A stretch of 64,000 nucleotides of DNA from Deroplatys truncata (Eukaryota; Arthropoda; Insecta; Mantodea; Mantidae). The notes under the pieces were generated by a model, which was given only the letters and a program-made list of their open reading frames with translations, was not told the origin of the DNA and did not search any database. Location of the stretch: NCBI GenBank assembly GCA_030765065.1, contig CM060979.1, forward strand, positions 105,636,350 through 105,700,349, in the 5' to 3' direction. The position numbers and the translations under genes were made by a program. Position 1 is the first letter of the stretch; each line of letters opens with the position of its first letter. Shown here one piece after another: positions 663 through 60,495 of the stretch.

Positions 663-932
663 AAAAAATCTGATGTGTTACACTCACATGACTTTCTCTA
701 CTCTTGTACAAACTATTTTTACAAACGCTTATTCTCCATCTTATTTTGTTAATAGAGATAAACATTTGCAGACTCTATCTTATTGCTAATTTTCTTGTAG
801 ATGTAAGGGAAATATATATTTACAAGGGCAATATAGAAATACAGTAGCCTTTAAGCACATACATATCTCTTAATAGCTGATTACTAGGTGCAGCACCATT
901 CCCTTTGCAACAGATTAATACTCTTTGCATAT

Positions 933-2058
933 TGAAGTGATAAGATCCGCGAGTACAATAATAATCACAGCCAGAATAAAAGCTTAAGACTAATCCGCTA
1001 ATAAAACAGAATAAGGAAGGAAATAAGTATAATAAGGAGATAAAAGAAAATATTAAACATTAAGAAAAGGGGGGGGGGAATAAACATTATTACGGATGAA
1101 ATAAAATAAAGTAGAGACACGTATAAATAAATCAGAATGTGAAAGGAAACGCAGGAAAAGAAAAGACACAAGGAAATCTGCCAAAAAGGCAAAACACTTT
1201 AAGTAATACAGGAAAGGCGGGCAGGAGAAACAGTTAGGTTCTATTGAAATCGACGGAGACTCGCCGGAAAGCGGAACAATGAAACGGATGCGCTAGGTAC
1301 TCATGCGGACAGAAAATCAAATCAGCCGTTAATAATGTGAAACAGAAGAGACGCTCGCAGTGCATAAGGTTGTTGAAATTTAACCAATGGTAGGAAAAGC
1401 GCAAAGTAGCTAAATAGCCAATAAGGAATAATAAAAGTCACGTGAATAGTAACGCAAGGGAACGAAACTAGAAAAGAGGCGTGAAATAGATTTTTGTCTA
1501 GGAGCAGGAGCGAGTTTTCGACACGCGAAACATGGAACACTTTGTGTCGTGAATAGCTGGAGAGAGGATGTAAAAACTTTGTATCGTGTAGAGCAAGGGA
1601 GGGAAGATGAAATATTTCGTGTGGTAAAAGATAGGGAAAACAGGCTACGTGTAACAGTTTATATTATCACAAGAGAAAGAGATATACGATAGGAAATTAT
1701 CGTAGTAGAACAGTGAGAGATAGGGTAGCTAAGAATGACAAAAGTTATATTGTGTATAACTTAGAAAGAGAATAAAATCCAGGGAGAAGCACGGAAACTG
1801 TAACGGGGAAAAACAGATAGGAACGCGTCTTGTTTAAAGGGTCTTCAGTACGACAAGAAGTGTGGATCTTCAGAATAAATGGGCCACTGAGAGGAGCTGT
1901 GAGTATAATTCATCTCCCATCCACACAATCCCTGAGATAAGAATCCCACAATCACTTATCCTCTACCTGAGTAGCCGGCAATAATCTTTCCGTACCCGAA
2001 ACCCTAAGCCAAGTTCCTACACACCAGAAAACGTCATATTTACCAAAACCCCGCCACA
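933..2058. mobile_element. Probable solo LTR (fossil LTR element) inside CTR copy 1
   Basis: The block starts TG, ends CA, and is bounded by ATAT at 929-932 and 2059-2062. The related CTR copy at 59546-60495 lacks it and shows the uninterrupted sequence around 59858-59861, so the insertion is clean and 1126 bp long. TG...CA ends with a 4-bp target repeat are what a recombined LTR of a Gypsy-like element would leave. No gag-pol region is present, and orientation and exact family are unknown. It is younger than the CTR copy it sits in. An unrelated TG...CA insertion is the main alternative. Confidence 0.55.
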
Positions 2059-2535
2059 ATATCCAAGACAAAAAATGAATAACGAATTCCCATTTGAGAA
2101 AATAAGTATTGAACAATTTAAGGGAATAACAACCAATATCTCGAAAATGGTTCACTCAACAAAACAAATGTATATGACATGAATTGTGTATTTTAACGCG
2201 ATCTACATTTTTTGTGTAGTAAAATTTTGTCTATCTCTTATGGTTTATCAGTTATGCAAAAGTCGTTCACAATGAAGAATACTTTTGGAGACATTCCCAG
2301 AAAATTCAAGATATCCATTTTGTTTGTCATGAGAATATCTTAAATATATATTTTAATCAAAATCGTTAGAGCCATTTTTGAGAAAATTAAAATGTTCGAA
2401 AAATGTTCCATGTAAAGGATAATCTGGGGTGGGGGGATTTTCTTAAAAACCTTTGTGTCGCATCTCTGGAAGATACTGAACCTAAATACCAAGTTTGGTG
2501 TTTATCCGACTGTTCGTTTCTGAGTTATGCTGTTC

Positions 2536-2570
2536 ACAGACAGACACACACACAGACACACACACGGACA
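2536..2570. repeat. (CA)n tract inside CTR copy 1
   Basis: Interrupted CACA/CAGA tract between the 'gctgttcacag' block and the 'tttccaaaaatgc' block. It lies at the same place as the (CA)n tracts of the other CTR copies. Confidence 0.85.
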
Positions 2571-2703
2571 TGTTTCCAAAAATGCTTTTTTTGGATTCAG
2601 GGGGTTTCAAAACATATATTTCCGGTGAAATCACGGTATCGAATTTTTGGGTGGACTACAATACTTCCCCTACTTACTATACGTAGTAGAGAAAGTAAAA
2701 TAT

Positions 2704-2865
2704 GCTCTAAGGCAAACTTAATGGCGAAGAGTTCACAGGAGAAGATGATAAGATGCTTTGGAGAATAGATCATAGTACAGGCAGGAAATATTACTGCACA
2801 ACCACAGTCGATATCCGTTTTGGAGCCATCCGTACAAATAGTTTCGAAGCTCTTGTGCATTCTAC
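2704..2865 (-). pseudogene. LINE RNase H N-terminal half
   Basis: Minus-strand translation ICTDGSKTDIDCGCAVIFP carries the first conserved RNase H block (T-D-G-S-K), and CELFAIKFALEHI carries the second catalytic acid region (the glutamate of 'E-x-x-A-I/L'). The domain stops abruptly at the CTR start near 2698 and resumes at 658. Part of the 1-5790 LINE. Confidence 0.8.
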
Positions 2866-3479
2866 GGAAATTTGCGAATATGCTGCGATAGAGGGAGCTA
2901 TCCGGAAGGTTTGTAATATTTAGTGATAGAGGTGTCGATATTGCGAACTTGTAACCTTCAGAGGGAAGTAATAACGTTGAAGGAACGTATAATCAGAGTA
3001 GGGAGAGTCAAATTGAACTCTTCAAGGTAATCCAAGATCCTGTGAGATAAAGTAAGTAAACGGCTTCTTGATATCGGAAGATTAATTTGCGTTTTATGAA
3101 ATACGATGGGATAGATTACAGATTCGGTTCTAGTGGCGATTTTTGTACCATATGCAAGACTCGGAGCTTCTCTCCTAATTGCGAGAGGTGAGTCATTAGC
3201 TTCGATTTGCAGACTCTCTATTGGGCAAGTAGGAGAAGCACCTAGAACGATCCTTAGTGCTGTGGATTGAATATTATCCAGCTTTTTAAGTACTATGGAG
3301 CTTGGTGATTTGTATGTTATACATACTTAGTCCAGTTTAGGACGGATGATTGCCTTATAGGTGTGCAGCAAAACGTTGGAATCAACTCCCTAGGATTTTG
3401 TGGATAACGTTTTTAGAATATTAAGACGGCATATACAGATAGCTGGAAGAACTCTGAGGTGGTGGATCTAAGTTAAGCT

Positions 3480-4600
3480 GTTGTCGAATTTGTTTTAGTA
3501 ACAATTGGAATTCGCAGTTTGTTCATTGTGAGTTCGGGAACTGGAAACGTTTTTTGCACCTCGAGAATACGATATTTTGACTCTTAAGCGGTGAGAATTT
3601 AAAGCCTTATCTGCAACTCCATTAGCAAAGATGGTCGAGTTCCTTTGTAGTAGTTTTTGAGCATTGACTGCGTTCTTTTCCTGACAAAAAGGCGCTAAGT
3701 CATATCCCAAACCGGCATGCTTTGACGGGAGATTTCAGCATGACATTATACTATTAATGGCCACCAGAACGAAGTCAGAGGGCTGGTCCCTGTGGAATAT
3801 CATTTTCTATAAAGTGTGATAAAAACCCATTTGTCTTGACGCATATTCGGCGGTCCTGGAGAAAATTGTGACTAAACCCTAACATGTCGTATTTAACTCT
3901 ACATTCTAGGAGTATGCGGATGATGTGATCATGCTGAACAGTTTCATAAGCTTAGTCAATGTCGATACTAATGGCATTGAGGTGTTAGTAATTGGAGAAG
4001 GCATCTAGTATTTCTGTCTCAAGTATGGTCAGAACATCAATAGTAGGATAGTATTGGTGGAAACCGCATTGTACATTAGAAAAAAGGTTTCTGTTCTCCA
4101 AGAACCATCGTAATTGTATATTGATTATCTTCTCTAATATCTTACTCATTGTGCTGATGAAAAAATAGGGCGGTAGTTTTCCAGAAGGGTGCGGTTTGAA
4201 ATTGGTACAAGTATTGAAGTGCGCCGTTGGTTAGGGAAGTATTTATCTATCCACATATGATTGGACACCTTTAGAAGATATGAAAAGCTTCTACGTGGCA
4301 TCTTCTTGAAACATTCGTAAGGAATATTGTCGATTCCTGGCCTCTTATTATTGCAAGTGCGAATTACTGCCTGAATTCTTCTAGGTTGTATAATCATTGA
4401 AGTCCTGGTTAGAGGTAGGTCAGTTACAGGAGAGGCTTTCTTGTTAGGAGTGAATTCTTGGTCATATTTTAGGTTACTAGAGGTTTCAGTTAATGTGGTA
4501 GTAAGTATATCAGCAATCATTTCTATCACAGAAAATCTGCGATAGAAATACAGGAACTTCCGGATCTACGAGTAAGAAGGGAAATTTCATTTTTCCAATC
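3480..4600 (-). pseudogene. LINE reverse transcriptase domain, frameshifted
   Basis: On the minus strand, 4529-4146 encodes the opening RT motifs: NNKRPGIDNIPYECFKK (the 'K-x-P-G-x-D' finger motif) and a downstream LENYRPI block. Near 3960 a palm motif reads AISIDID.AYETVQHD ('D-I-x-K-A-Y-D-x-V'), near 3790 ENDIPQGPAL ('G-x-P-Q-G-S-x-L-S'), and near 3710 GYDLAPFCQ, a worn form of Y-A-D-D-L-A-x-F. Further down an Q-I-E-A-N-D-S-P-L stretch belongs to the thumb/connection region. Several stops and frame changes separate these pieces. The plus-strand reading of the same bases is a shadow. Confidence 0.75.
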
Positions 4601-4894
4601 AGTGCTACAGACTCACTGAATTTTGTACCATATATCTGACTGATGTATTTGGTTGTTTAGTTCCAACCGAGATTCTCTCTTGCTGTGTCTAATTTCCTTA
4701 CGGGCAACAGCTGGCAAACGATTACTTATATTCCTGCTTGTTAGCGATATTTGGATATCAGTTGTGTTTATACTAAATGGTTTATTCTTAAGTTTGATGT
4801 CTATGCTACATCTCTCATGTCACCATGGAACAGTTCGCTGGTTGGAGCCTCGTGAGCTAGGGGGATGCTTAGTTCGACACATTCGACGGTTTCT

Positions 4895-4925
<31 letters not shown>

Positions 4926-4926
4926 A
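4895..4926. repeat. (GAAA)n microsatellite
   Basis: About seven GAAA units, lying in the linker between the LINE's endonuclease and RT regions. It probably expanded after the LINE died. Confidence 0.9.
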
Positions 4927-4994
4927 GGAATAAAAAGCTACGACATTGCTTATATCTGAGTGTGTAAAATTGTCAGGCTTAGGTAATTTCTCAA

Positions 4995-5775
4995 GCAACG
5001 CGTCGAGAAGTGCTCTAAACTGAGGCCAATTACTCTGGGTACATTTTAAATGGAGTGTCTTCCGAACTGTCTGTGTGAAACATATTTAAGAAGATGGGAA
5101 GATGATCGCTCCCCATAATTGTAGAGGAAATCGTCCAGCGGAATTTAGAGGCAATATTAGAGGAGCATAACGTGAGGTCGACGCTACTGACGATGGACGT
5201 CATAGCGGGTTGGATATGGAGAATTAAGGAGGACCAAATCAAACTATTGAATTATGGATTCAATAACTTTTTCTTATTATCCCGTATACGATTACGACAT
5301 TAAAATCGCCAAGCATTAGAAATGCTTGGGGTAATTGATTAAGTAATTCGGTTAAAGATGTGATATGAATTTATAATTATCTCTTCTGCATTTATTGAAG
5401 CTATTGAATGAATTATATCTTTTGATGTAATTAAAATTCGTGTTAATGTATTTATTATGTTAGTACTGTTTGGGAAATAGACGCTGCAGATACAAATATT
5501 TGTCTGCAAAAATACAGAGACCGCCACAGCTTCAAGTTGTGTATGCAGAGGAACTTCTCTCTGAAGCACAGTCATTTTTAACATAAGTACTGATGCCACC
5601 TTTAGGATGGAGGCATTCTCTTCTATTGCGGTTTAAACTGTGTAGTTTCGCAAAGGAGTGATATAGGAATTGCTAAAATTAATTCCTTGTAAATGCATTA
5701 TCCAATTATTCCTTTCAGATTTAAGAACTTGGAAGTATTCAAACCGATATCTAAACTCACTTAAATTCCACTGGA
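4995..5775 (-). pseudogene. LINE apurinic-type endonuclease domain
   Basis: The minus-strand reading starts near 5775 with an I/L-Q-W-N-L-S-G-type opening (the usual 'L-Q-W-N-x-x-G-x' start). It continues to a NRRECLHPKGGISTYV stretch, then REVPLHTQLEAVAVSVFL with ICICSVYFPN (the 'I-x-x-x-Y-x-P' strand). It ends with SSVDLTLCSSNIAS and TIMGSDHLPI, where S-D-H is the conserved catalytic/structural triad end of the EEP fold. Frame changes occur at several points. It nicks target DNA in live relatives; here it is dead. Confidence 0.8.
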
Positions 5776-13867: not shown

Positions 13868-14690
13868 TTTATTTTCTCTACCATATACTTAGTAGGTAGA
13901 GAAGGTATTGCATTCAATCCAGAAATTCAATACCAAGATTTCACTGGAAATACGTGTTTCCATAGCTCCTGAATCCCCCCCCCCCAAAAGCATTTTTAGA
14001 AAAAAAAATCCGTGTGTATGTGTGTCTGTGAACAGCATAACTCGAAAACGAAAAGTCAGATCAACACCAAACTTATTTAAGTTGAATTCCAAAGATGCGA
14101 CACGAAGACTTTAAAGAAAATACCCCCCACTGCAAATTACTGTTTACACGGAACATTTTTAGAAATGTTTGATTTTCTAAAAAATGGCTCTAGCGATTTT
14201 GATTTAAATATAATATATTAAAGATATTTACATGGCAAATAAAATGTATATCTTGGATTTTCTGAGAATAGCCTTTAAAGTCCTCTTCCTTCGGAAAGAA
14301 TTTTGTATAATCTTATAGAAGTGGTAAACATTAAGCGATAGACGAAAATGTACTACACAAGAAATGTAGATCTTAAAACGCACAATTTATTTCAAATATT
14401 TTTTTTGTGGCTTCGGCCATATCCGTTATTAATGGTTTGAATTGTTTAGTACTTAGCCATTCTTTTAATGTCCTTTCAACATTAAATTGTTTCTTGCGAT
14501 TGCATGGAAACAGTATGGAGATTTAAGGCCAGCGTATATTTAACTATCGCTGCTCTCTTTGTATCTATAACGACATCGGTGATGTAGCTGTTTCTGCAAA
14601 GGTTTATTTGGATTAAAATGAAGTAGATATAATAATAAGATTTAGTAAGACTAGTTTGTATACCCACTAATAAACCCTCTCTAGACAACG
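13868..14690 (+). repeat. CTR copy 2 (A-type), near full length
   Basis: Starts 'ttttctctaccatatac' and runs in order through all internal landmarks. The terminal GTAGAGAAAGT is worn (near 14690). The (GT) tract at 14011-14030 is short, and a C-run sits at 13977-13985. Confidence 0.85.
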
Positions 14691-15137: not shown

Positions 15138-15980
15138 TTGCTTTCTCTACCACGTGAAAAGGTAGAGAAGGATTGCACTCCACCAAAAAATTCGATATCG
15201 AAATTTCAGTGTAAGTGGGCTCTGGAATTAAAAACGAAAGCATTTTTAGAAAAAGGTGATGTTTGTGTCTGTGAACAGCATAACTCAAAAACATGTCGGG
15301 TAAATACCAAACTTGATACTTAAGATCATTACCTTCCAAAGATGCGATATGAAGATTTTCAAGAAAGTCCCCTCACCCCAAGCTACCCTTTCCATTTCCC
15401 TTTCTTGATTTCCTCAATAATAGCTCTAACGATTTTGATTAACATACCATATATTAAATATATTTACATGACAAATCAAATGTATATCTTGAATTTTCTG
15501 AGCATAGCCTGTGAAGTCCTCTTCATTTGAAGGGAATTTTATATCATCTTGTATAACTGATAAACGTTAAGTGATAGACGAAACTGCACTGCACAAATAA
15601 TGCAGATCTCTTTAAAGCACACAATTTCTTTTAAATATTTTTGTGGCATACGCCATTTACGAAATATCCGTTATTAATGGTTCGAATTGTTTATTACTTT
15701 TGCATTCTTTTAAAGTCCTGTCGATTTTCGGTTGTTTCTCGTGATTGCATGGGAAAGGTATAGAATTTTAAATCCAGTGTATATTGTCCAGTTCTTAAAC
15801 AATCGCTATTCCCTTTATATCTATAACGAAGTGTGTAATGCAGCTATTTCTGCTAGGGTTTATCCAATTAAGAGAAGTAGATAAAACAATAAGCTTTCGT
15901 AAGAACATCTTATATGCCCACTAATAAGCAATAGAGGATAGAGAAAGTCATGTGAATGTAACATATCATTGTTACATTGT
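15138..15980 (+). repeat. CTR copy 4 (A-type), near full length
   Basis: Starts 'tgctttctctaccacg' with the paired 'ggtagagaagg', and ends 'gatagagaaagtcatgtg' near 15961. Its microsatellite has shrunk to 'gtgatgtttgtgtctgtg'. Confidence 0.85.
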
Positions 15981-16282: not shown

Positions 16283-17562
16283 AAGGGTCTTTCAACAAGA
16301 GTGTCCTATCTTTAACATGTGATAGCTGCCGTTGTTAATGAGTTGCAACAGTCATTTTTTTCCTGTGGTTACAGTTGTTATTGACAAATAGCCATGGAAT
16401 TACAGCATTCAGAAAACGCGTAGAAATTGTGAAAATTATTATCAAAATGGATCATCTGTTCGCCAAACCTTCCGTGTATTGCGTGAAGTTTACGGTGTGC
16501 ATAATCGTCCCTGCGAGAGAACGATTCGGGGTTTGATCGATAAATTTGAAAGAAGTGGTTCTGTCAGCGATCAAAGAACGCCTGTACGTAATCGACGTAA
16601 GCGCTCCAACGAAAACATAGGCGCCGTTCGTGAGAGTGTACGCGAGAACGGAAACAAATCAATTGCTCGTCGAGCGCAAGAATTGGGGCTTTCGCCGACC
16701 ACAACTTGGCGAATTCTGCATCTGGTCTTGAAGTTTCACGCTTACAAAATGGTGTTAACTCAAGAACTAAAGCCCAACGACCATAGTTTGCGCCGTGTAT
16801 TCGCTGACTGGGCTATGGGGCAATTGGAAGCTGTCGAAAAATCATCTTCAGCGGCGAAGCTCACTTTTGGATGGATGGTTATGTTAACAAACAAAATTGC
16901 CGCTATTGGAGCAATAAAAATCCAATGCAGATTCAAGAATGACCACTTTATCCCCAAAAGGTTACTGTGTGGTGTGGATTTTGGTACAGTGGAATCATTG
17001 GTCCATATTTTTTCCAAGATGAAGATGGAGAAGCTCCGTCAATGGAGAAAGATACCAGGCCCTTATAAGGGACTATTTTTGGCCTCAATTCGATGGTATG
17101 GATCTCAGAAATATTTGGTTCTAGCAAGATGGTGCCACATGTCTTACTGCTCTCGAAACAATCGATCTTTTGAAGAAGTTCAGAAGGTTTCATCATTTCC
17201 CGTGGTGGTGATGTTAATTGGTCCCCGAGGTCATGTGATTTAACGCCGCTGGATTACTTCTTGTGGGGTTATGTTAAATCTCGAGTTTATGTCAACAAGC
17301 CAGACACAGTAAATGATCTTATGAATAACATCACGCGTGTTATTCCTGAAGTTGGACCTAATTTACGTTCTTCTGTCATTGAAAATTGGGTCAACCGTAT
17401 ACGCGCAACCCAACGAAGTCGCGGCATTCACTTAACTGATGTTCTATTCTACACTTAATGACATTAATTATGCTCCAAAATAAAAAAGAAATAAACGTCT
17501 ATCATTTATAGAACGTGTTTTATTTAAGTTCAAAGATAGGACACATTTGTTGAAAGACCCTA
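16283..17562 (+). mobile_element. Near full-length Tc1/mariner-superfamily transposon with TIRs and TA duplication
   Basis: The ends are inverted: left AAGGGTCTTTCAACAA and right TTGTTGAAAGACCCTA, followed inward by 'gtgtcctatcttt' and its complement. TA lies at 16281-16282 and 17563-17564. The 1280 bp hold a transposase covering nearly the whole family length, with an N-terminal helix-turn-helix and all three catalytic regions, but several frame changes and stops. The insertion site is the 5' tip of a CTR copy, so the element is younger than that copy. Confidence 0.9.
16394..17458 (+). pseudogene. DDE transposase with HTH, frameshifted, first catalytic Asp lost
   Basis: The frame starts near 16394 (M-E-L-Q-H-S) and enters KRVEIVKIYYQNGSSVRQ. 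The DNA-binding part (16479-16790) reads HNRPCERTIRGLIDKFERSG, then RRAQELGLSPTTTWRILH and VLTQELKPNDHSLRR. In another frame, 16850 reads IFSGEAHFWMDGYVN, where relatives have S-D-E-A-H-F, so the first catalytic aspartate is glycine here. QDGATC near 17130 holds the second aspartate, just after a stop. CDLTPLDYFLWGYVKSRVY (about 17235-17292) holds the third, in the DD34D-like arrangement. The C-terminus ends at 17458. The insect family with R-G-x-H-L-x-D-x-x-F-x-T ends is the best match from memory. Confidence 0.85.
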
Positions 17563-18183
17563 TACATACCTGTATTAAATAGAGGAAGTATTGCATTCCA
17601 CCCAATAATTCTATACCAAGATTGCACTGGAAACACATGTTTTGAGACTCCTTGAATCCAAAAAGGCAGCTTTAGAAAATGGTCCATGTGAGTGCGTTCG
17701 TGTGTTTGTGAACAGCATAACTAAAGTACGAAAAGTCGTTTAAGTACCAAACTTGGTATTTAAGTTAAGAGTCTTCAGGGATGGAACGCGAAGATTTTAA
17801 AATAAATCACCCGATCCCAAATTACCTTTTAGGTACAGGGAAGTAAAATTGTTAGTTTTAATTTTCTCAAAAACGGCCTTAAAGATTTTGATTAGAATAC
17901 CATACCTATATTTAAGAAATGTTTATAGCAAGTACCTATGCTGAATGTTCTGGGAACAGTCTGTGAAGTTCGCTTCATTCTGAATTACTTTTGTATAACA
18001 GATAAAGCGTAAGAGATAGGCAATATCTTACTGCACAAAATATGTAGTTCTCGTTAAAGCGCACATGTCATGTTGAATAAAATCTTTTGTGGCGTTGACT
18101 ATTTGCGGGACGTTCCTTGCTATTGGTTTGAATTTTCAAATACTTACACTTTTTTCAAGTGGAAAATCGCTAGATATTCCTTT

Positions 18184-18422
18184 TTACTTTCTCTGCTACT
18201 TACCTATAGTAAGTAAGAAGAAGCATTGTATTCCACCCAAAAATTCAACACGAGATTTCACCGGAAATGCACGATTTTTAAAGTAAAAGGGTCCGCGCGC
18301 TTGTGTATGTGTCTGTGAACAGCATAAATCAGAAATGCCAGATAAATACCAAACCTGGTATTTAAGTTCAGTATCTTCTAAAGGCGCGATGCAAACATTT
18401 CGAAAAGTTTTTCATATAAATA
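18184..18422 (+). repeat. CTR copy 6, 5' part only
   Basis: Starts 'ttactttctctgctac' and stops after the 'gcgatgcaaacatttcg' landmark. It forms an inverted pair with copy 7. Confidence 0.8.
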
Positions 18423-18424: not shown

Positions 18425-18705
18425 AGTTTGGAATGGGGCAAATATTAGTATGAGATGGAGGCTTTCCTTGAAAATGTTTGTGTCGCATTCTTGGAAGATG
18501 CTGACTTTAAACACCAAGTTTGGTATTTAACCGAGTTTTTTTTTTGAATTATGCTGTTCACAGACACAGACACACGCATGTATACAGACACACACACATA
18601 CACACGCATACACAAAACCCACACATAAACACAGACACACACACGCACACACAAAAACATACTCACAAACACGCACATACACACTGACACACACACAGAC
18701 TAAAG
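18425..18705 (-). repeat. CTR copy 7, partial, with expanded (CA)n
   Basis: Reverse-sense landmarks 'ttgaaaatgtttgtgtcgc' and 'ctgttcacagacacag' lead into about 150 bp of CA-rich tract (18556-18705). The part 5' of the tract (in CTR sense) is gone. Confidence 0.8.
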
Positions 18706-42514: not shown

Positions 42515-43395
42515 TGTTTACTTTCTCTACTACGTACAGTAAGTAGGGGAAGTATTGCATTCCACAGAAAAATTCGATACCGAGATTTCACAGAAAATAC
42601 ATGTTTTGAGGTGCATTGAATGCACATAAAGCATTTTTGGAAACATGTCCGTGTGTGTCTGTGTGTCTGTCTGTGTGTGTGTGTGTCTGTGAACAGCATA
42701 CTCAGAAACGAACAGTCGGATAAACACCAAACTTAGTATTTAGGTTCAGTACCTTCCAGAGATGCGACACGAAGGTTTTCAAGAAAATCCGCCCACCCCT
42801 GATTACCCTTTACATGAAACATTTTTCGAACATTTTAATTTTCTCAAAAATGGCTCTAACGATTTTGATTAAATATCATATGTTTAAGATATTTTCATGA
42901 CAAATGAAATGTATATCTCGAATTTTCTGGGAATGTCTCCAAAACTATTCTTCATTATGAACGACTTTTGCATAACTGGTAAACCATAAGAGATAGACAA
43001 AATTTTACTACACAAAAAATGTAGATCGCGTTAAAATACACAATTTATGTAATATACATTTTTGTTGTTGAGTGAACCATTTTCGAGAGATATTGCTTGT
43101 TATTCCCTTAAATTTTCGCATACTTATACTTTTTCTCAAATGGGAATTCGTTATTCATTTTTTTTTGTCCTGGTAATGCAAAGAGAATGGAATACTGACA
43201 ACATAGCAACCAGCTCTTAAAATATTTGACTATCGCTTAAAGCCTACCAATTCCCCTTGCATCTACAAGAAAATTAGCAATAAGATTAACATCTCGATAT
43301 CTCGATTATCATGAAGCATATGGAGAATAAGCGTTTGTAAAAATAGTTTGTACAAGAGTAGAGAAAGTCATGTGAGTGTAACACATCAGATTTTT
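42515..43395 (+). repeat. CTR copy 14 (B-type), full length
   Basis: The 5' tip 'ttactttctctactacg' is at 42519. It has a (TG)n at 42650-42690 and ends 'gagtagagaaagtcatgtg' then 'aacacatcagatttttt' near 43396. Same subtype as copies 1 and 25, without the solo LTR. Confidence 0.88.
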
Positions 43396-44090
43396 TTTAG
43401 ATAAAGGTCCGTGTGTGTGAGTGTGTATGTCTGTTAGCAACGTAACTCAAAAAGAAAAGTCGGTTAAATAACGAAATTCGTATTTAAGTTCAGCATCTTC
43501 CAAAGATGCGACCCGAAGATTTTCAAGAAAATCTCCGCATACAAAACTACCCTTTACATGGATAATTTTTCGAAAATTTTGATTTTCTCAAAAATGGCTC
43601 TAACGATTTTGATTAAAATACCACTTATTTAAGATATGTTCGTGATAAATGAAATGTATATTTTGAACTTTCTTAGAATATAATTCTAAGCATTCTTTAT
43701 TCCCAATGACTTTTGCGTAACTGGTAAACGTAAAATATAGACAAAATCTTATCTACTGCAAAAGAAATGCAGGTCTCGTCATTTTTTTGGAGGAGTTAAC
43801 CTTTGCAAGATATTCCTTATTATTGATTTCAATTTTAAAATATTTACACTTTTCTCAAAATGGAAGTCTCTATTCGTTTTTTTCTCGTGGTAATGCAAAG
43901 AGCATAGAATTTCAAAAATATCACATAACGGCACGTTCTTAAAAATCTGACTATCGCTTCACCTGTTGTATCGTACAACGAAGTGTGTAAATGTGTGTTG
44001 AAAGTTTATCTGGATTAACAAGAAGTGGCTAGAATAATAAGGTTTTGTAAGAGTAATTTGTAGAAGAGTGAGTATAGAAATCCATGTGAA
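43396..44090 (+). repeat. CTR copy 15 (B-type), 5'-truncated
   Basis: Starts inside the unit, at 'agataaaggtccgtgtg' just before the microsatellite, directly after the 3' end of copy 14. It reaches a worn 3' end near 44075. Confidence 0.85.
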
Positions 44091-44315
44091 TCAATGCATG
44101 ACATTCCATGCAAATATATGGAATTTCAAAGCCATCACATAAAAATCTGACTATCGCTTTAGCCTAGTGTATCCTTCTTATTCTAACAAAATATGTAAAT
44201 GTATAATGAAAGTTTATCTCGATTGATAAAAAAAATGGATAGAAGCAAAACTTTTACATGAAAAGTAGAACAGTGAGTAGAGCAAGTTATCTAAATGCAA
44301 CACATAGGATGATTT
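44091..44315 (+). repeat. CTR copy 16 (B-type), 3' part only
   Basis: Starts at 'catgcaaatatatgg' within the B-type 3' half and ends 'caacacataggatgatttt'. Confidence 0.75.
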
Positions 44316-46016
44316 TTTTTCTATGCGTTTCATGTTGATCGAGATAATTATATGTAGATATAATTCCATTACAGATTTCGTTGTAGGTAGAAACGTAATA
44401 GAGAAAACCGAATCGATACTCAGGTATTTAAATGGGCGTGCTATGGCTTTAAAACTCCATACTCTTTTCATGACATCGCGAGAAACAAGTGAATGGTGAC
44501 AAGATTTAAAACAAATCACAAAATATTGAACAGTTGAAACAATATTTTGAGGCAGTATTATTAACACTTAAATGATTTCAGTCAAATTATATAATATGTG
44601 AATTCAATAACAGCCCACCTTGAAGCAATATATGTATGTAATAATTTGTAAAATGTATGTAACAATCATTGCATATGCTTATATTATTGTATCCATGTGT
44701 AAATATGTTATGTGAATATATTACGTAATTTAATAATGTAGGAGCTGTGAGAATAGTAAGTTAAACGTTGCTAACAATCAGGTAACAATGAGGTAACCTT
44801 GCGGCAATAATGAATTTGAGAGTTTAAATGTTATTTGTGATTCTTGGAAACATTAATGTCATTTTAGTGACAGTTTATAAAAAATAGCCATTCAACAACC
44901 AGAAAAAGCTTTAGTTAAATGCAGGTATTCTATTGGAGTAAAAATAGCCAATCAGATACTTGAAATACAGGAATTTATAAGTTTAGACGGTTGAAATCTA
45001 GTCAGTTGCCTGCAGACTGTGATAGTAACCGGATGCAAGATGCGTCCTCGAGAGAAATATAAATTCTGTGAAACGAAAACAGTATACGTATTAAAAAGTG
45101 CAAGTATTAAATAAAAGAATCTCACAGCTCTCGATATCAGTGAAGTGCTATTTAATTTGTGTCAAGGATTAATAAAAAGGAGTGAATTAAAACTTAAAAT
45201 CTGTGTGAGCCTACATTCTTGTCGCATAACGCCCTGCCGACTTCCATGTCTCTAAAATAATACTGACGCAGCCGAGGCAAACATAAATATTAAATATTTA
45301 AAGAAACAGTCAAATTACAAAGCTATTATTTTTAAACTTGGGGCAAAGACCACCTGAAAGTACATTTTGGGGTAAAGGCTACCGGAAACTGTTTACTATA
45401 GTGCGGTTGCAACGAATTTTAAGTTCGGCTCCCCAACAGTTGAAATATAATACAACTCCTTCAATACAACCTACTTCAAACTGACTTTTCATACGTAAAG
45501 CTAAATAAATAAACAACTCCAACAAACTATCTATCTTCAATTTACGTATACCTCGGAAATGGCTGAAACCACAAAAACATTGTTTGAAATATATTGTGTG
45601 TTTTAAAGAGATCTACAGTTTTTGTGTAGTAATTTTTGTCTTTCTCTTAACGTTTACCAGTTGTACAAAATAATTATATAAAATTATATCCCAATGAAGT
45701 GGACTTCATAGGCTATTCCCAGAAAATTCAAGATATATTTTAAACATATGGCATTTTAATCAAAATTGCTGCAGCCATTTTTCAGAATATAACACAAAAT
45801 AAAGAATAATTTTCCATATAAAGATCAGTTTTGTGTATAGAGGGTTTTCTTGAAAATCGTCGTGTCGCATCTTTGGAAAATGCGGTACTTAAACACAATT
45901 TTGATATTTATCGAGTTATGCTATTCACACACACACAAACATACACACACACACACTCTCTCTCTCTCTCTCTCTTTTTCTGTCTCTCCCAGACACATAC
46001 AGATCTATTTCTAAAA
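44316..46016 (-). repeat. CTR copy 17 (A-type) with a 0.99-kb insertion
   Basis: The 3' half is at 44316-44548 and the middle and microsatellite at 45536-46016, with foreign sequence between. The break falls in the 'cgaaccattaataacgg' landmark. It ends beyond the (AC)n(CT)n tract at 45927-45990, where copy 18 starts. Confidence 0.75.
44549..45535. mobile_element. Unclassified insertion in CTR copy 17; possible LTR remnant or MITE inside
   Basis: Other CTR copies read straight across this point, so about 0.99 kb was added here. Within it, GAGCTGTGAGA at 44742-44752 and TCTCACAGCTC at 45120-45130 are exact inverted copies about 370 bp apart. Just before the second lie a TATA-like stretch and an AATAAA, which would fit a fossil LTR (about 44737-45126, TGT...ACA). 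They would also fit a small inverted-repeat element. No protein region was found. Class is undecided. Confidence 0.35.
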
Positions 46017-46052
46017 ATCTGATGTGTTATATGACGTTCTCTATCCTTACCA

Positions 46053-46092
<40 letters not shown>
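46053..46092. repeat. (ATT)n microsatellite
   Basis: About thirteen ATT units within the 3' part of CTR copy 18. Confidence 0.95.
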
Positions 46093-46093
<1 letters not shown>

Positions 46094-47047
46094 AACCTAT
46101 CTTGAAAAAGCTTATTTTTATGTCTACTTTATTTTAATCCAGATAAACCGTTGCAGAAATAACTCTACATTAAGTATTTCGTTGTAGATACGAAGGGGAT
46201 GGCAGTATCAAATGTTTTAGAACTGGAGGCTATACGTTGCCATGCAATCGCGAGAAACAACTGTATCTCAATGGGACTTTAAAAGAATGACAAAGTATTG
46301 AAAAATTCGAACCATTAATAACGGTTATCTCGGAAATGGCTTATGCCACAAAAAAGCTATTTTAAATAAATTGTGTGTCTTAAATAAACCTACAGTTTTT
46401 GTACAGTGCGTTTTCGTCTATCGCTTAACGTTTACCGGTTATAGCAGATTGTAGAAAATTCCTTCAGAATGAGGAGGACTTCACAGGCTATTCCCAGAAA
46501 ATTCAAGATATACATTTTATTCGTCATGTAAACGTCTTTAATATGAGTCATTCCACGCACAAATTTTCACAAAATCTAACCATCATGTCTTCGATTCACT
46601 TCAAATATTGTCCAAGGATTACAAAAACAAAGTGAATTATATTTTAAATTCTTAATTTTTTTAAATAATAATACTTTTTAAAGTTTTGCGCAATCCAACT
46701 TGTGAAAAGCGGCACACATCCCTACCTTTAAATTAGGATATCTTACAGGCGATAAGTGATAAAATTGTGTTATAAAATACAATGCAAAGCTTAATATGTA
46801 GTCTTTTACTTAATATTTATTGTAGTTGATATAATTAACTATTTACATCAATTTTTAAAATCCAAGTATTTAAAACTATATATCTCTTTTAGCTCCCAGG
46901 TTTAAATTTCTATAAAATATAAACAAATTCCTTGTAGTTTTTTGTATATATTTGCATTAAACAAAGATGGGATCCTATATAGTGAATTTTAAATAAAATA
47001 ACTTAGAAATCGGTGCGTAGCAGGATTCCAGTGCGGCACGGACGGAG

Positions 47048-48484: not shown

Positions 48485-48608
48485 GCTGAGATCGTATGTC
48501 GTGCTTTTCTATTGGAACTCTTCTATTTGATTTCGTTTTCTTCCACTTGAACCCTAAATCTTTTATAAATTTTCTGAAATTTGTAGCACCACCTTGAAAT
48601 TTATGCTG
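48485..48608 (-). repeat. Direct duplication A (transposase segment)
   Basis: About 124 bp, roughly 90% like 48747-48868 by eye. It starts 'gctgagatcgtatgtcg' on the plus strand. It encodes the GGATN...KKTKSNRR block. Confidence 0.85.
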
Positions 48609-48746
48609 ATATAGGTATATATAAAATTATAGTCATTTTGAAAGGTAGAATCAGACTGAAAAATTCAATGCCATACCCGGGATTTGAACCGGGATCTTAG
48701 GCTTTCCCTGTCGTTGCTCTCACCGACTAAGCTATCATGGCAACAT
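48609..48746 (-). repeat. Short tRNA-derived SINE with a 73-nt tRNA-like head
   Basis: 48741-48669 (minus) is exactly tRNA-length. The acceptor arms GCCATG / TATGGC pair. The D arm is GCTT...GAGC with GG in its loop. The A box TAGCTTAGTCGG and B box GGTTCAAATCC are perfect. The T stem has one C-C mismatch, and the anticodon stem does not pair. Only about 60 bp of AT-rich tail follows. It is therefore a SINE head rather than a working tRNA gene. It sits exactly between the two direct duplications. Confidence 0.7.
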
Positions 48747-48868
48747 GCTGATTGTATGTCGTACTTTTCTATTACAACTCTTCTATTTGATTTCGTTTTC
48801 TTCCAGTTGAACCCTAAATTTTTTATACTTTTTCTGAGATTTGTAGCACCACCTTGAAAATCTATGCT
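48747..48868 (-). repeat. Direct duplication B (transposase segment)
   Basis: Partner of 48485-48608. This copy is joined to the upstream part of the transposase frame. Confidence 0.85.
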
Positions 48869-50472
48869 GTATTTCAGCTTGATGAGCAATGTGCTCCTTG
48901 TTGACACAGTATTTTCTTCCACATAGAAATTGTGAATCGTGCATCATGAAGTCGAGGACTTTGCAATTATTTCCTTGCTTTGACTATGTAATACATTAAC
49001 ACTTAACTTTGAAAACGTAGGAACCAAATATAAAATGAGCACTATTTAGGTGCTGCTCTCGTTGAAATTACAACCAGATGCTGACACTTTCTATGCAGAC
49101 TGTATGTGTTACGCACTATGAGTAAGCAAAGCTATTATATCACTTTCGTTGATTAAGCTAAACATAAACCATTCTTAGGCTCGGCAGCTGGGGTGGCAAT
49201 CAAGGTCACGATTCCAGAAGTTTTGCGCCAGTTATAACTAAGCTTAATGATTTCTACCTTGTGTTATGCTTGGAAACATTAAATGGACTGAAGCAATAGT
49301 CATAGCTACGTTTCTTCAATTCGCTCATTACGCACTTTCAGAAATCACAGACCTGAGAATGAGCTAACGCAAAAAACTGAACACAAAGTAACATTTAAAG
49401 TGAAACAGTGGAGAGAGACAATATAAAATATCAGATTCCAGTTGCTAAGTTACACCGAACACCGGAAATGATAGCATATCACGTTCCTACTGCGTAACGC
49501 ATCGACCGGCGCGGCGTGCCGCTGCAGTGTAAAGCTCCTAGTCAGCAGTCTATGTTGTAAAACCCTACGCGCTAACACAAATAAACTGTTGAAAAGCGTA
49601 CTTCTATGGAAGATCCCATCCTGATAATAACATATTTAAAACAAAACATATCACAGATTCCTGCTGTATTTTTTACATATTTTATTATTAGAGGGTTAAG
49701 TATGATATTGCCGTTTTAAATATTCATACTTAAAAAGTGATTGTTCTTTATTCCGAAAAGATAGTAGTTTACACGGGGAAAACCACATTGTTTTTATCTG
49801 CGAAACGATATATTGTTCTTATTCTTGACCATTCTGTATTCCGAGAATAAGTTACTTTTATGTAACGTTGTGTGCGTGTAAGAAAAATGTTAAGTACGCC
49901 GTAAATCCGCAAAATATAAAATATGATTTATTTTATGTGTGGAACACGTAAAGTAAAATTCAGAGAAAGTAATGTTTTATGTGTTCGGTTTGATGTGGAA
50001 TGACTCATATATGGTATTTTAATCAAAATCGTTAGTCATTTTTGAGAGATTCGAAAATTTTGCAAAATGTTCCCTGTAAAGGGTAGAGGGATGGGGGGAT
50101 TTTCTTGAAAAATTTTCGTGTCGCATCTGTGGAAGACTGAACCTAAATACCAAGTTTGGTATTTATTCGACTTTTCGTTATTGAGTTATGCTGTTCACAG
50201 ACACACATACGCACATGGACATTTTTCTAAAAATACTTTTTTTTTGGTTTCAATGGACCTCAAAACAGTATTTCCGGTGAAATGTCGGTATCGAATTTTT
50301 GGGCGGAATGCAATACCTTCTTTACTAGGTTGAGAAACTGAGAATGCACTCTTTGGGTTCAGGGGCCCTCAAAACGTGTATTTCCGGTGAAATTTCGGTA
50401 TCGATTTTGTTATAGAACAAGATACTTCCTTTAGTTAGGTACTTTAAGCGGGTAGTAGAGAAAGTTAAAGTA

Positions 50473-54634: not shown

Positions 54635-54887
54635 TATTTTAGTAACGTTTTTGTTGTTATTATTTTCATACATATTAACATCGTTTAAAATACAAGAATT
54701 TTAGCTATTTATATAGTAAAATGTTGAATTATTTCATTATTATTATAATTTTTTGTGCTTAAAAGCATCGCAACGTTCGGTTTTGAATGGATCACCAGTC
54801 CATTTCGTTTTACCTTATGGATAACAGTTATTTGTGTCGCTTCTATTAAGGTGCCTAAGGCAGGAATATAAGCATAGAGTTTTGCTA

Positions 54888-55690
54888 TAACAGGTAGAGG
54901 AAGTATTGTATTTCCACCCAAAAGTTCGATAAGGAGATTACACCGACGATACAGTTTCAAAAATCCCTGAATCCAAGAAACTCATTTTTATAAAAAGGTC
55001 TGCGTGTGTGTTCGTAACTCAAAACAACTCAAAAAAACGAAAAGTCGTTTAAATGCCAAACTTTTGCATTTAAGTTGTGTCCTCCAATGATGCAATATGA
55101 AGATTTCCAAGAAAGTTATCCCACCTCAAATTACCCTCTTCATGGGAAAATAATCGTTATCTCTTATTTTCTCAAAAATTATGTAACGATTTTGATATTT
55201 AAGATATTTGCATGACAAATAGAATGTATATCTTGAATTTTCTGGGCATAGCCTATGAAGTTCTCTTTATTCTGAATTACTTTTTTATAATTGGTAAACT
55301 GTAAGCGATAGATAAACTCTAAACACACAAAAAATATGTAAATTTTGTTAAAGCACACTTTATGCCCAATAATTTTTTGTGGCGTTAGTTATTTCCGAGA
55401 TATTCTCTGTTATTGACTTGAATTTTAAAATACTCATACTTTTTTAAACTACAAATCGCTATTGTTTTTTTTTGTGTTCATGCAAAGAGACATAAATTTA
55501 AAAGCCATCACATTGTGACCCACTTTAAAGTATTTTGCTATCCCTTTAATTTACTGTATTCTTTTTATACCTACAACGAAATATGTAAATGTGCAATGAA
55601 AATTTAATTATATTAACAAGAAGTATGTAGAAAATAAGTTTCTATATGAATAGTTTGTAGAAGAGCGAGTAGAGAAAGTCATGTGAATGA
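54888..55690 (+). repeat. CTR copy 19 (B-type), near full length
   Basis: Starts 'gctataacaggtagagg' (worn tip) and ends 'gagtagagaaagtcatgtg' near 55684. The microsatellite is nearly lost ('gcgtgtgtgttcg'). Confidence 0.85.
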
Positions 55691-55931
55691 AAATGATCAA
55701 TTTTTTATGGGGATCATGCAAAGATCATGGAATTTGAAAGTAATAACATAGCGACACACTTTCTAAAAATCTGACTATCGCTTTAGTCTGGTGTATACAG
55801 TGAAAAGTGTATGTGTAATGAAAGCTTATCTGGATTAATAATAATTACTGAGATGCAATATTAAGCTTATGGAAGAGTAGGTTATAGATTGTGAGTGAAG
55901 TAGTCATGTGTATGCAACACATCAGAATTTT
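55691..55931 (+). repeat. CTR copy 20 (B-type), 3' part only
   Basis: Starts at 'ggggatcatgcaaagatc' in the B-type half, right after the 3' end of copy 19, and ends 'caacacatcagaatttt'. Confidence 0.8.
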
Positions 55932-56294
55932 ACTTTCTGTACCACGTACAACGTGGATAGAGAAGGTATTGCATTTCACCCAAAGATTCGATATGGAGAT
56001 TTCACCGGAAACACCTGTTGTGAGGCCCCTGAATTAAAAAAAAAGTATTTTTAGAAAAAGGTCCGTGTGTGAGTCTGGGTGTATGTGTCTGTGGTGTGTG
56101 TATGTGTGTGTATGTGTGTGTCTGTGAACAGCTCAAAAACGAAAAGTCGGATAAACACCAAGCTTGTTATTTAGGTTCAGTACCTTCTAAAGATGGGATA
56201 CGAAGATTTTCAATTGCTCACCCCAAACTACCCTTTACATGGAAGATTTTTGGAAATTTTTGAATTTTCTAAAAAAATGGCTCTAACGATTTTG

Positions 56295-57016
56295 GTTTCG
56301 TTTTATGCCAAGGCCACAATCGCCTTAGATGCGTATCGGCCGAGACGGCAATAACCTCGGTATTATATCACTGCGCAGCAACATCACAGGACAAGTTAAG
56401 TTACGTTTATCAGCTGTGAGCTGTCTCAGTCGTTGCTTTGTATTCGTGTTGTGAAGTATTTCGATAATACGTGTGTTGTGTGTGATTTCCTTAGAAATGC
56501 TATTCTCTTATAAGTCCACCTAAATGCCTGGCAACAAATTCACGCTTGAACCGGTATTTGTATGTACGATAACACTGAAAACTGAATTATGTAGACAGGT
56601 GTATAGACAATTTCAGCAACAATTTCCTTGTTATCCAGTTCCGGGTAGAGACACTGTGAAATGTTTGGTCAATAAATTTAGAACAACTGGATCACTAAAC
56701 GCTAAAAAATAAAGTTTATAGGAAGAATCCCTACATTATAGACGAACTTAACGACAATATAAAAGCAGAAGTTATGAACATTACGCAAGAACTTATTCCT
56801 GGTAATTTCGTTCGACGATGTCCGAATGTCTTCACGCAGATGGACACACTTTCAACAACACTTATAACAAGGTTAGTACTAATTACATATATGTTACTAA
56901 TACTCGTGAGTAAGCAACGTGGGAACTACGGAACGGAAAACCCTGCAGTGAGGTAAACTGTGTAACGGAGCACGCAATCGCGTGATCCGTGGCCTTAGCA
57001 TAAAACGCAGGCAGTG
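56295..57016 (+). mobile_element. Internally deleted DDE transposon, about 0.7 kb, inside CTR copy 21
   Basis: CGTTTTATGCCAAGGCCAC at 56299-56317 is inverted at 56989-57007 with one mismatch. The outermost bases on the left seem lost, so no target duplication can be read. The plus strand keeps the two ends of a transposase but not its middle. Confidence 0.75.
56524..56880 (+). pseudogene. Transposase N- and C-terminal remnants
   Basis: The frame from 56524 gives LCRQVYRQFQQQFPCYPVPG, then RDTVKCLVNKFRTTGSLNAK, the DUF4817-like helix-turn-helix with 'T-V-x-x-L-V-x-K-F-R-x-T-G-S'. After a stop, other frames read NDNIKAEVMNITQELIPGNF with VRRCPNVF and ADGHTFNNT, which is the C-terminus of the same family ('x-N-I-K-x-E-I-x-x-I-x... 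R-R-C-x-x-C-x-x-A-x-G-x-H-F-Q-H'). About 200 residues including all catalytic acids are gone. Confidence 0.7.
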
Positions 57017-57512
57017 TATTAAATATATTTGCATGACAAATAAAACGCATAACTTGAATTTTCTGGCGAAAGTATATTCTTGTATAGATAACTAGTAAAC
57101 TTGTATAGGGACAGACGGAAACGTACTACACAAGAAATGCAGATCTCTTTAAAACACACAATTTATTTCAAATAAACTTTTTTGTAGCATAAGCCATTTC
57201 CGAGATATTCGTTACTAATGGTTCGAATTATTCATTACTTGGACATTGTATAAAGTCCTTTCAACATTCAGTTGTTTCTCGCGATGCTGGAAACAATATG
57301 CAATTTTAAGACCAAGGTATAGCTTATAGTTCTTAAACATCTGACTACCGCAGTTCCCTATATATCTATAATGAATTATGTGATGTAGCTATTTCTACAA
57401 AGGTTTATTTGAAGTAGATACAAAAATAAACTTTAGTAAGAATAATTTGTACCTATACCCATTAATAAGCGATAGAGAGTAGAGAAAGTCATGTGAATGT
57501 AACACATCAGAA

Positions 57513-58205
57513 TTTTTCTCGTGGTCATGCAAAGAGAACGGAATTTCTAAGCCGTAACATAGCGATCCGCTTTTAAGACATGGCTATCTCATAAGCCTAC
57601 TTTATTCCGCTCGTGCTTACAACGAAACATCTAATAAAACAATTTCTGAAAATGTTTATCTCGTTTAATATGAAGCAGTTGGAGGAATAAGCTTTTTTAA
57701 AGAATAGTTTGTAGGATAGTAAGTAGAGAATGTATAGGGTATATTATAGGTTATAAACGCAGAGGGACATCTCGCGCACTGCAACCCTCGTGAGATCTAT
57801 TGCGGCTACCACCCCCAAGTGAAGGAATCACAGGAGGCTACAGGCCGCAGGTAGACAGGTCACAGAGACGAGCAGAAGTGTCTAACTTTCCTTACGCGAA
57901 GACCCGCCCTCTGGTATTCACTTGAAGCAAGCATCCGCGGCATCTTTTAGCACCGCCTCTCGCCGCAAAAACCTAGAAGCACACCTGAAAAATGTGAGGG
58001 AAACGGAATGAAAGGGAAATAGGGAAAAGTATTCGTGGTAGATGAGAAACCACCCAACATTCGCTAAGCGACCAGGGAAAATAACGACAAACGCTAGGTC
58101 AGAGTGGGCGGTCGACAGGAATTGAACCCGAGAGTTGCCAAATGCATTACCGCAGAACCAACTCGCTCGGTAGAGAGTGTAACACGTCATATTTTTTTCA
58201 AGTGG
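57513..58205 (+). repeat. CTR copy 22 (B-type), 3' part only, split by a SINE
   Basis: Starts 'ctcgtggtcatgcaaagag' after the 3' end of copy 21. The terminal 'agtagagaatgta' lies at 57722-57734. After the SINE, 'gagagtgtaacacgtcat' closes the unit. Confidence 0.8.
57735..58172 (-). repeat. tRNA-derived SINE, family 1b, near full length
   Basis: B box GGGTTCAATTCCTG at about 58118-58131 and A-box region ('ggttctgcggtaa') at about 58145-58157, reverse sense. The 3' body to the left carries 'gcggcatcttttagcacc' and ends at 'cgcactgcaaccctcgtg'. The latter corresponds to 'gatcgcagtgtgcaag' at 63599 in the plus-strand copy, which gives the family's 3' end. Confidence 0.8.
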
Positions 58206-58448
58206 TAAATCATAAATCATTATTCTTTTTTTTTCTCGTGGTTATGCAAAGAGGATAGAATTTAAAGCCATACCATAGCGATCCACTTTTTTAAAAACCT
58301 GACTGTCGCTTTAGTCTACTGTATGCTTCTTATACTTTCAAGAATGTATAAATGTGAAATTAACAAGGAGACAGAAGAATAAGCTTTTGCAAGAATAGTT
58401 TGCAGAAGATTGATTGGAGAAAGGCATGTGAATGCAACACATTAAAGT
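58206..58448 (+). repeat. CTR copy 23 (B-type), 3' part only
   Basis: Starts 'ggtaaatcataaatcatt' and ends 'aggcatgtgaatgcaacac' near 58440. Confidence 0.8.
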
Positions 58449-58735
58449 TTCTTAAATGCTGTCGTTATTCAGTTGTTTCTCGTAATATCACGGAAATAGT
58501 ACAGAATTTCAAGCCCAGCATACAGCCACTCGCGTTTAAGCATCTGACTATTGATTCGATTTTTTCTATCCCCCTTGTAATTGCAATGAAATTATAATAA
58601 AGCTATGTCTGCATAGATTTATATAGATTAAAATGAAGTACATAGGAAAAAGCTTCCGTAGGCATAGTTTGTAGAAACAATATAAAATAAGCAACAATGG
58701 TCATATGAATGTAACACATGCAATTTGTTAAGAGA
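58449..58735 (+). repeat. CTR copy 24 (A-type), 3' part only
   Basis: Starts 'tgctgtcgttattcagttg' and ends 'atgaatgtaacacatgc' near 58731. Confidence 0.78.
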
Positions 58736-59545
58736 AAATTAAAATGAAAGAAGTCATTCTTTTGAAAATAAATACATTTTTTAAAGTTCTATTTTTAAAA
58801 AGTGCTTTAAAGCCTAAGTAGTCCTCCAAGTAGTAGACTTTTACATTGATTGAAAAAGTATATTTAGGTAGAAATTTTTAAATGCTTGGGATCTCCAAAT
58901 ATCAATATGCCCTTTCCAAATTATCAAGAATTTGGCTGCAATGTGAACTTTATGAAACAGGCCAGGCATGAAACATATTAGATGCTTCATAGTATTTAAT
59001 TATAGTATTGTATTGTATCGTGAAGATATAATTATTGTAAACAGCCAAAACTTTTTATCCAGTTTCTCAGTTATTCAGATAAATAAATGAAAAATATTTG
59101 CACGTTTGCAATATTATGATCAATAAAATTTGAGTGTAAACCTCAAAATAGATTTATATAACAAAACAGGATGTGCTTTCTTGACTGTGTTTCCTTAAAT
59201 TATTAAACTCAGTTAAACATTTTATTTTAATTTTTACGTTTTAAAAATTAATACCAACTTTTATTTAGGACAATTAAGTGATAATATATACACTGTTTTA
59301 AATTTTCCAGGAGAAATGGTGTTTTATAAGAAAATCATGAAACTGAAAGTATTGCATATGTATGTGCGTGATGATAAATATTCATTAAAGCTGAGAATTG
59401 ATGAATAAAAGCTTTATGTCAATAGTAACAAGCATGGGAACTTGAATTCAGTAACTTAAAATGTTCGATCTTATGAATAAACACTAACATTTTTATTCGG
59501 TACCTAGCTTAATGCAAAGTAGTGCAGATGAGATAACGAGTTAGG
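58736..59545. other. No gene seen (0.8 kb)
   Basis: Strongly AT-rich. No ORF of note, boxes or TIRs. Confidence 0.6.
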
Positions 59546-60495
59546 AAATAAAAAAATCTGATGTGTTACACTCACATGACTTTCTCTACTCTTGTACAAA
59601 CTATTTTTACAAACTCTTATTCTCCATCTATTAAATATTAATCGAGATAAACATTTGCAGAAATGGTATTTTGACATGCAAAGAGAATTACATTTTACAC
59701 ATAACGACCAGTTCTAAAAATATTTGACTATCGCTTAAGGCCTACTATGTTCCCCTTGATTTTGTATTTGCAGTGGCCTTTAAGCATATACATATCTCTT
59801 AATAGCTGGTTGCTATGTGCAGCACCATTCTCTTTGCCTCAGATTAATACTTTTTGCATATACAAGACAAAAAAATGAATAACGAATTCCCATTTGAGAA
59901 AATAAGCATTGAAAAATTTAAGGGAATAACAAGCAATATCTCGAAAATGGTTCACCCAAAAAAAAAGTATATGACATAAATTGTGTATTTTAACGCGATC
60001 TACATTTTTTGTGTAGTAAACTTCTGTCTATCTCTTATGGTTTACCAGTTATGCAAAGGTCGTTCACAATGAAGAATACTTTTGGGGACATTCCCAGAAA
60101 ATTCGAGATATACATTTCATTTGTCATGAAAATATGTTAAACATATGATATTTTAATCAAAATCGTTAGAGCCATTTTTGAGAGAATTAAAATTTTCGAA
60201 AAATGTTCCATGTAAAGGGTAGTCCAGGGTGGGGGGATTTTCTTGAAAACCTTCGTGTCGCATCTCTGGAAGATACTGAACCTAAATACCAAGTTTGGTG
60301 TTTATCCGACTGTTCGTTTCTGAGTTATGCTGTTCACACACAGCCACACAGACACACACACGGACATGCTTCCAAAAATGCTTTTTTTGGATTCAGGGGG
60401 TCTAAAAACGTATATTTCCGGTGAAATCTTGGTATCGAATTTTTGGATGGAATACAATACTTCCCCTACTTATTATACATAGTAGAGAAAGTAAT
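59546..60495 (-). repeat. CTR copy 25 (B-type), full length, empty-site reference
   Basis: The 3' end 'aatctgatgtgttacactc' is at 59556 and the 5' end 'catagtagagaaagtaat' at 60493. It is very close to copy 1 and shows the unoccupied ATAT at 59858-59861 where copy 1 carries its 1126-bp insertion. A short (CA)n lies at 60337-60362. Confidence 0.9.

Follow-up and report, generated by a model that had tools for sequence, protein, structure and literature searches.

Helitron2-type transposons, or Helentrons, are described in passages of PMC3627910 as having inverted repeats placed 0-2 bp from the 5' end and approximately 20-30 bp from the 3' end, together with a 5' terminal T, a 5' hairpin that takes in the 5' repeat, wholly or partly, and a 3' hairpin located behind the 3' repeat. 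For Helentrons and HINEs, passages of PMC4067079 report a TT target, strings of T at both boundaries, microsatellites and occurrence in clusters. A further system, DINE-1 (INE-1) of Drosophila, was at first named a miniature inverted-repeat transposable element (MITE), according to passages of PMC2374699. Here we analyse CTR, a repeat family found in 64,000 nucleotides of the mantid Deroplatys truncata (GenBank assembly GCA_030765065.1, contig CM060979.1, positions 105,636,350 to 105,700,349 of the forward strand; the whole stretch is called the window, and positions are counted from its first letter). CTR is very probably a family of non-autonomous Helentrons (Helitron2-type) with the same build as HINE and DINE-1. 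The initial annotation held that it fits no class and recognised no Helitron ends. Its ends are indeed not those of Helitron1, whose canonical 5' TC and 3' CTRR are replaced by TTAC... and ...CAGATTTT, but they match Helitron2/Helentron ends at each structural point tested, namely asymmetric repeats, a 5' hairpin, a 3' hairpin and insertion into T runs without duplication. The supposedly unclassifiable mix of features is the signature of the Helitron2/Helentron class.

In its distances CTR comes closest to Helitron2 as portrayed in passages of PMC3627910, with which it also has in common the asymmetric inverted repeats, the hairpins at both ends and the 5' terminal T; it differs in being non-coding in all copies seen and in having no RepHel protein tied to it. 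With HINEs, as covered by passages of PMC4067079, it shares subterminal inverted repeats (the 5' one near the end, the 3' one inset), a palindrome near the 3' end, a T-rich target, boundary T strings, microsatellites, clustering and the absence of coding capacity. The repeats of mite HINEs are given in these passages as palindromes of 12-15 bp that lie 38-60 bp from the 3' end, whereas those of CTR measure around 11 bp, lie 22-28 bases from the 3' end and pair, at the 5' side, with the bases behind. CTR contains a GTCT/GTGT microsatellite, and a GTCY-type microsatellite is present in the 5' block of DINE-1 (passages of PMC2374699). The repeat sequence of CTR differs from the DINE-1 repeats in the Table 1 passages of that paper. 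A previously unclassified repeat is hereby placed, in a class whose members are missed if canonical Helitron ends alone are sought.

Structure of the CTR family and its ends

The abundance of the family is evident from its 5' repeat, ACTTTCTCTAC, which has 21 matches in the window (at most one mismatch, both strands) when 1.38 are expected, a number reached in none of 100 shuffles. A profile hidden Markov model (HMM) built from six near-complete copies gave 32 matches at E <= 1e-3, covering 14,536 of the 64,000 bases (22.7% of the window), and no match at this threshold in five dinucleotide-shuffled windows. In the alignment, near-complete copies without large inserts (60494-59551, 42518-43396, 34073-33189, 32023-31152, 15138-15970 and 54869-55706) are approximately 0.83-0.94 kb long and keep the order of their landmarks along about 0.9 kb, as had been proposed. 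All copies seen lack coding capacity. Identity over the 5' part, compared among ten copies, is 91-93% among three type A copies and 67-79% for all other pairs, implying an old family that includes a younger subfamily. In a tree of 16 3' segments there are three groups, the types A and B noted previously and one more (C). The initial annotation was therefore right in calling the family abundant, non-coding and subdivided, and the types A and B are real, but they are not the only two.

In element orientation CTR starts with T(T)ACTTTCTCTACTACGTATAGTAAGTAGGGGAAGTATTG and finishes with GTAGAGAAAGTCATGTGAGTGTAACACATCAGATTTT. The 5' repeat starts 1-2 bases in from the 5' terminus and, at intact ends, its inverted copy ends 22-28 bases before the T-rich 3' terminus, with a short hairpin and then a T run after it; inverted subterminal repeats with an inset 3' member had been described earlier and are confirmed on these ends. 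The 5' hairpin is formed by ACTTTCTCTACT, in the 5' repeat, and AGTAGGGGAAGT directly downstream. Both structures can be seen in the type A copy on the minus strand at 59551-60494, where the 5' hairpin occupies 60459-60493 (ACTTTCTCTACT with AGTAGGGGAAGT, including two G-T pairs) and the 3' end, at 59551-59589, consists of the inverted repeat GTAGAGAAAGT, the hairpin ATGTG-7-CACAT, CAG and the T run.

Both stems were evaluated across the family. For the 5' stem, 13 ends were used out of 17 candidate positions, 17552 and 54869 being omitted as degenerate and 44277 and 57733 being 3' repeats on the other strand. Standard pairs fill 86.1% of the pair cells, as compared with 45-55% when one side is slid by 1-3 columns, and both-sided changes occur in two pairs, one of them from T-A to C-G in five of the 13 ends. 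DNA folding of these ends gave z values of -2.6 or lower in seven. For the 3' stem, ATGTG-7-CACAT, 14 ends remained from the 17 listed once the degenerate ones at 44103, 44308 and 58196 had been omitted, and 85.9% of the cells are paired, against 5-60% in the slid arrangements.

Insertion sites, class and arrays

The flanks of seven copies were compared, among them 34073 and 32023, which lie in arrays, 42518, which is nested, and 54869, which has a poor 5' end. Near the junction, the flanks agree at most in ATATT, TAT, T, TT, TTT, GTTT and GGA. Among 20,000 random site pairs a match reaches four bases in 10.2% and five in 3.1%, and at least one five-base match in seven copies is expected by chance about one time in five. 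The repeat reported around copy 663-2698 does exist, as ATATT on both sides, and it is the single five-base match of the seven; it is compatible with chance and is no rule for CTR insertions. Copy 42518-43396 is nested in another CTR copy, and behind its 3' end the outer copy resumes at consensus 117-866 (HMM, E 6.6e-130). When its flanks are joined, the insertion point corresponds to the TTTTT of relatives (consensus 117-121), with T's alone repeated and no target duplication. Insertion into a T run without target duplication is thus read from one nested empty site and the seven copies, all within the window, and the constant 4-5 bp duplication that the initial annotation had proposed to look for is not borne out, one copy in seven having five bases and the nested one T's only.

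These observations bear directly on the possibility that CTR is a MITE, descended by deletion from a cut-and-paste transposon that bears terminal inverted repeats and duplicates 4-5 bp of its target. Such an origin would agree with the inverted repeats close to both ends and with the ATATT on either side of copy 663-2698, and DINE-1 itself was once classed in this way (passages of PMC2374699). We consider it very unlikely given that the 3' repeat stands 22-28 bases inside the end with a hairpin behind it, that the flank matches of the seven copies (5, 3, 1, 2, 3, 4 and 3 bases, the four being GTTT) are to be set beside the frequencies for random pairs, that the T run in which copy 42518 is nested shows a duplication of T's only, and that in three places a CTR 3' end stands directly against a 5' start. 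Cut-and-paste movement with a 4-5 bp duplication is rejected on the flanks of the seven copies together with the nested empty site. A SINE-like retroposon (short interspersed element) copied from RNA is more improbable still: CTR is short, non-coding and abundant, and its terminal T run would be an A run on the other strand, but both ends are precise and carry matched inverted repeats, the seven copies share no constant target duplication, and the search for transfer RNA (tRNA) genes in the window gave none with ARAGORN and one with Rfam, at 48669-48741, outside CTR. With no tRNA match inside CTR by either program, a tRNA-derived SINE is rejected; other RNA polymerase III promoters were not looked for.

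Copies of CTR frequently adjoin one another, and 11 of 12 unit junctions fall at or near consensus T runs, an assessment made on HMM coordinates and by eye; exact T runs of at least four bases hold 70 of the 883 consensus junctions. At 18176/18185 and 32024/32022 a copy halts at consensus 631-634, by the T run 633-640. At 30001/30004, 55706, 57517, 58196 and 58452 a 3' end is followed by a unit starting at consensus 610-634, and at 31152/31148, 33189/33188 and 55931/55930 a 3' end abuts a new 5' end. Insertion of CTR into T runs, those of its own family included, is the simplest reading of the junctions.

The arrays could alternatively consist of tandem duplicates produced by unequal exchange or slippage at T runs instead of by transposition into them, an explanation that concerns the arrays only and not the class of CTR, and to which we give a real, if less than even, chance. 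It would suit the six 3' segments that start at consensus 610-645 directly behind a 3' end, several of which have no matching outer 5' part upstream as far as the HMM detects, and the neighbours at 55706 and at 44103, which share a tree group. Against it, the outer 5' part does stop at the same T run at two loci (18176 and 32024), and neighbouring units fall into separate groups of the tree both at 58444/58451, where these groups have support of 95/94 and 97/96, and at 57517/57518, where the placement of the second unit has a support of just 86/83. The fuller proposal, that CTR re-inserts preferentially into its own T runs (consensus around 117, 590-640 and the 3' terminus), generating self-nested arrays that amount to almost a quarter of the window, while its internal microsatellite expands repeatedly and once to 0.9 kb, is put forward tentatively, with a probability below even.

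As to the microsatellite, all six AC/GT-type array regions detected by Tandem Repeats Finder (TRF) with a score of 50 or more are located in or against CTR, at consensus positions of around 130-200 (2535-2570, 18559-18697, 24944-25848, 31841-31884, 42646-42691 and 56065-56126). The AC-rich array at 24944-25848, 0.9 kb long, begins at the internal-microsatellite place of the CTR 5' end 25962-25821 and is probably an expanded CTR microsatellite. For this genome, the result is a named family that occupies 22.7% of the window and is the seat of the six TRF arrays; it entails no new mechanism.

Movement of CTR, reasoning from its class, would depend on the Rep/helicase, often joined to an endonuclease, of an autonomous Helentron elsewhere in the genome, acting in trans. 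The enzyme would nick the T-rich 5' terminus, after which rolling-circle replication would peel off one strand, ending at the 3' hairpin and T run. Termination might involve pairing of the 3' repeat with the 5' repeat, which would open the 5' hairpin, as passages of PMC3627910 propose for Helitron2. The freed strand would then be joined into a T run, and the T runs within older copies and at their 3' ends may serve as targets, which would account for the arrays.

Several results weigh against the assignment of CTR to the Helentrons or against its insertion into T runs. The pairing percentage of the 5' stem is reached by 174 of 500 letter shuffles among sequences, and six of the 13 5' ends, none of them of type A, do not fold clearly better than shuffles. 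The 3' stem has no compensated pair, and all 500 letter shuffles score as high. With neither stem surpassing its letter shuffles, true covariation is slight or absent, and support for the stems comes from the slid control alone. As to insertion, copy 663-2698 does have its five-base ATATT match, and the 5' flank of the nested copy 42518-43396 is only a weak match to consensus 69-104 (E 0.17). We chose the 12 junctions by hand from the HMM table, with a tolerance of around 10 positions and no test versus chance, and the one at 44103, where the next unit starts from consensus 645, is not clearly at a T run. Finally, no Rep/helicase came up in a Pfam scan of 135 stop-free stretches (in sets of 108 and 27) out of the 146 with at least 75 residues in the window, a script having removed 11 for low complexity, although shorter or frame-broken remains may be missed by such a scan. 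The 27 stretches of the second set, 17 overlapping CTR, four in or across an insert resembling a long terminal repeat (LTR) and six others, gave no Pfam match. The partner of CTR is thus inferred, and membership in the class rests on structure and insertion sites and not on an enzyme.

CTR copies in the window

Full-length type A copies are found at 59551-60494 (minus strand; HMM, ends and alignment) and at 42518-43396 (plus strand), the latter nested in the T run (consensus 117-121) of another copy whose remainder extends over 43397-44103 (plus; HMM) and is followed by an additional 3' segment, consensus 645-879, at 44104-44309 (plus; HMM and tree). A third type A copy, at 663-2698 (minus; alignment), has both ends intact and is split by a 1.1 kb insert. 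Type B 3' halves were identified by HMM, ends and tree in the copy at 15138-15970 (plus), with both ends present, and in the full-length copies at 31152-32023 and 33189-34073 (both minus). Directly behind the 3' end of 33189-34073 stands a 5' part at 33045-33188 (minus; HMM and ends).

The copy at 31152-32023 lies in an array on the minus strand. A copy comprising consensus 141-634, at 32024-32488, stops beside the T run 633-640 where 31152-32023 starts; a further copy at 30001-31148 is placed head to tail behind it and is interrupted close to the 3' end by an insert of a few hundred bases, and a 3' segment (consensus 634-882) at 29781-30004 lies directly behind the 3' end of this last copy. 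A comparable arrangement is present on the plus strand, where the match of the 5' part at 17569-18176 stops at consensus 631 beside the T run 633-640 and the next copy begins there, as a 5' part at 18184-18404 that starts in the T's (HMM and ends). A further row of units, also on the plus strand, begins with the copy at 54869-55706, which has a degenerate 5' end and a 3' end in the third group (C) (HMM and tree). It continues with a 3' segment (consensus 630-882) directly behind, at 55707-55931 (HMM and tree), a copy at 55930-57517 that starts in the terminal T's of this segment and shows no CTR match over 56298-57016, and another 3' segment (consensus 634-856) directly behind, at 57518-57732 (HMM and tree). 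Two consecutive 3' segments (consensus 621-877 and 610-882) are located at 58205-58726 (plus; HMM and tree).

The remaining matches are a copy at 13869-14675 with an intact 5' end and without a 3' terminus (plus; HMM and ends), the 5' end at 25821-25962 (minus) that leads into the AC-rich array 24944-25848 at the internal microsatellite place, two fragments (consensus 117-571 and 334-883) at 45545-46560 (minus; HMM) and 5' fragments at 50006-50467 (minus; HMM and ends).

Relatives were also sought outside the window. Four patterns gave no match to CTR relatives in viral contigs. A 16-base piece of the 3' end occurs in 66 viral contigs, in none of which GAGAAAG or ATGTG is present within 30 bases on the upstream side, and two CTR copies searched with blastn against all of these contigs yielded no match; the 66 are therefore taken as chance matches. 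Among the matches listed for the 5' repeat string in open papers, the subjects are unrelated as judged from the title and the start of the abstract, and two 3' strings had no match in open papers; neither of these two string searches turned up the family in print.

Other elements in the window

The insert in copy 663-2698 spans 933-2058 on the minus strand (TGTGGCGGGG...TATCACTTCA); it has no inverted ends, is not part of CTR and explains why this copy is 2 kb long. It comprises 1,126 bp, runs from TG to CA and is flanked on either side by ATAT, which copy 60494-59551 has only once at this place. It looks like a solo LTR, with no second copy within the window. A smaller insert of around 0.3 kb, at 30041-30335 in the 3' part of copy 31148-30001, carries GTTCAAATCC, which we take to resemble a tRNA B box; this insert, likewise without a second copy within the window, is perhaps a SINE. 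The Rfam tRNA match at 48669-48741, on the minus strand, scores 31.5 bits, barely over the gathering score of 29, and is not reported by ARAGORN. Beside it, 51 bp at 48750-48800 are repeated at 48490-48540 with 92% identity, and the region of the match is perhaps a tRNA-derived repeat.

Eight Pfam families were detected at E <= 0.01 (DUF4817, RVT_1, HTH_32, HTH_48, HTH_24, PAX, Transposase_1 and a weak AKAP28), most of them of reverse transcriptase, mariner-type or HTH kind. The mariner and retrotransposon relics, together with DUF4817, would suit an animal host, perhaps an arthropod. Around copy 663-2698, the region 2699-5500 on the minus strand resembles by eye the decayed remains of a non-LTR retrotransposon, including a part like RNase H; in three stretches of this region Pfam matched neither reverse transcriptase nor RNase H. 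Mariner-type remains are represented by DUF4817 in 16392-17240 (E 3.8e-11) and, below the Pfam cut-offs, by a weak HTH_48 in 40467-41114 and a weak Transposase_1 in 41188-41622. RVT_1 was matched in two frames, at 21567-22613 (E 1.6e-9) and 22617-22937 (E 5.7e-11), and the region 21567-22937 is a decayed retrotransposon.

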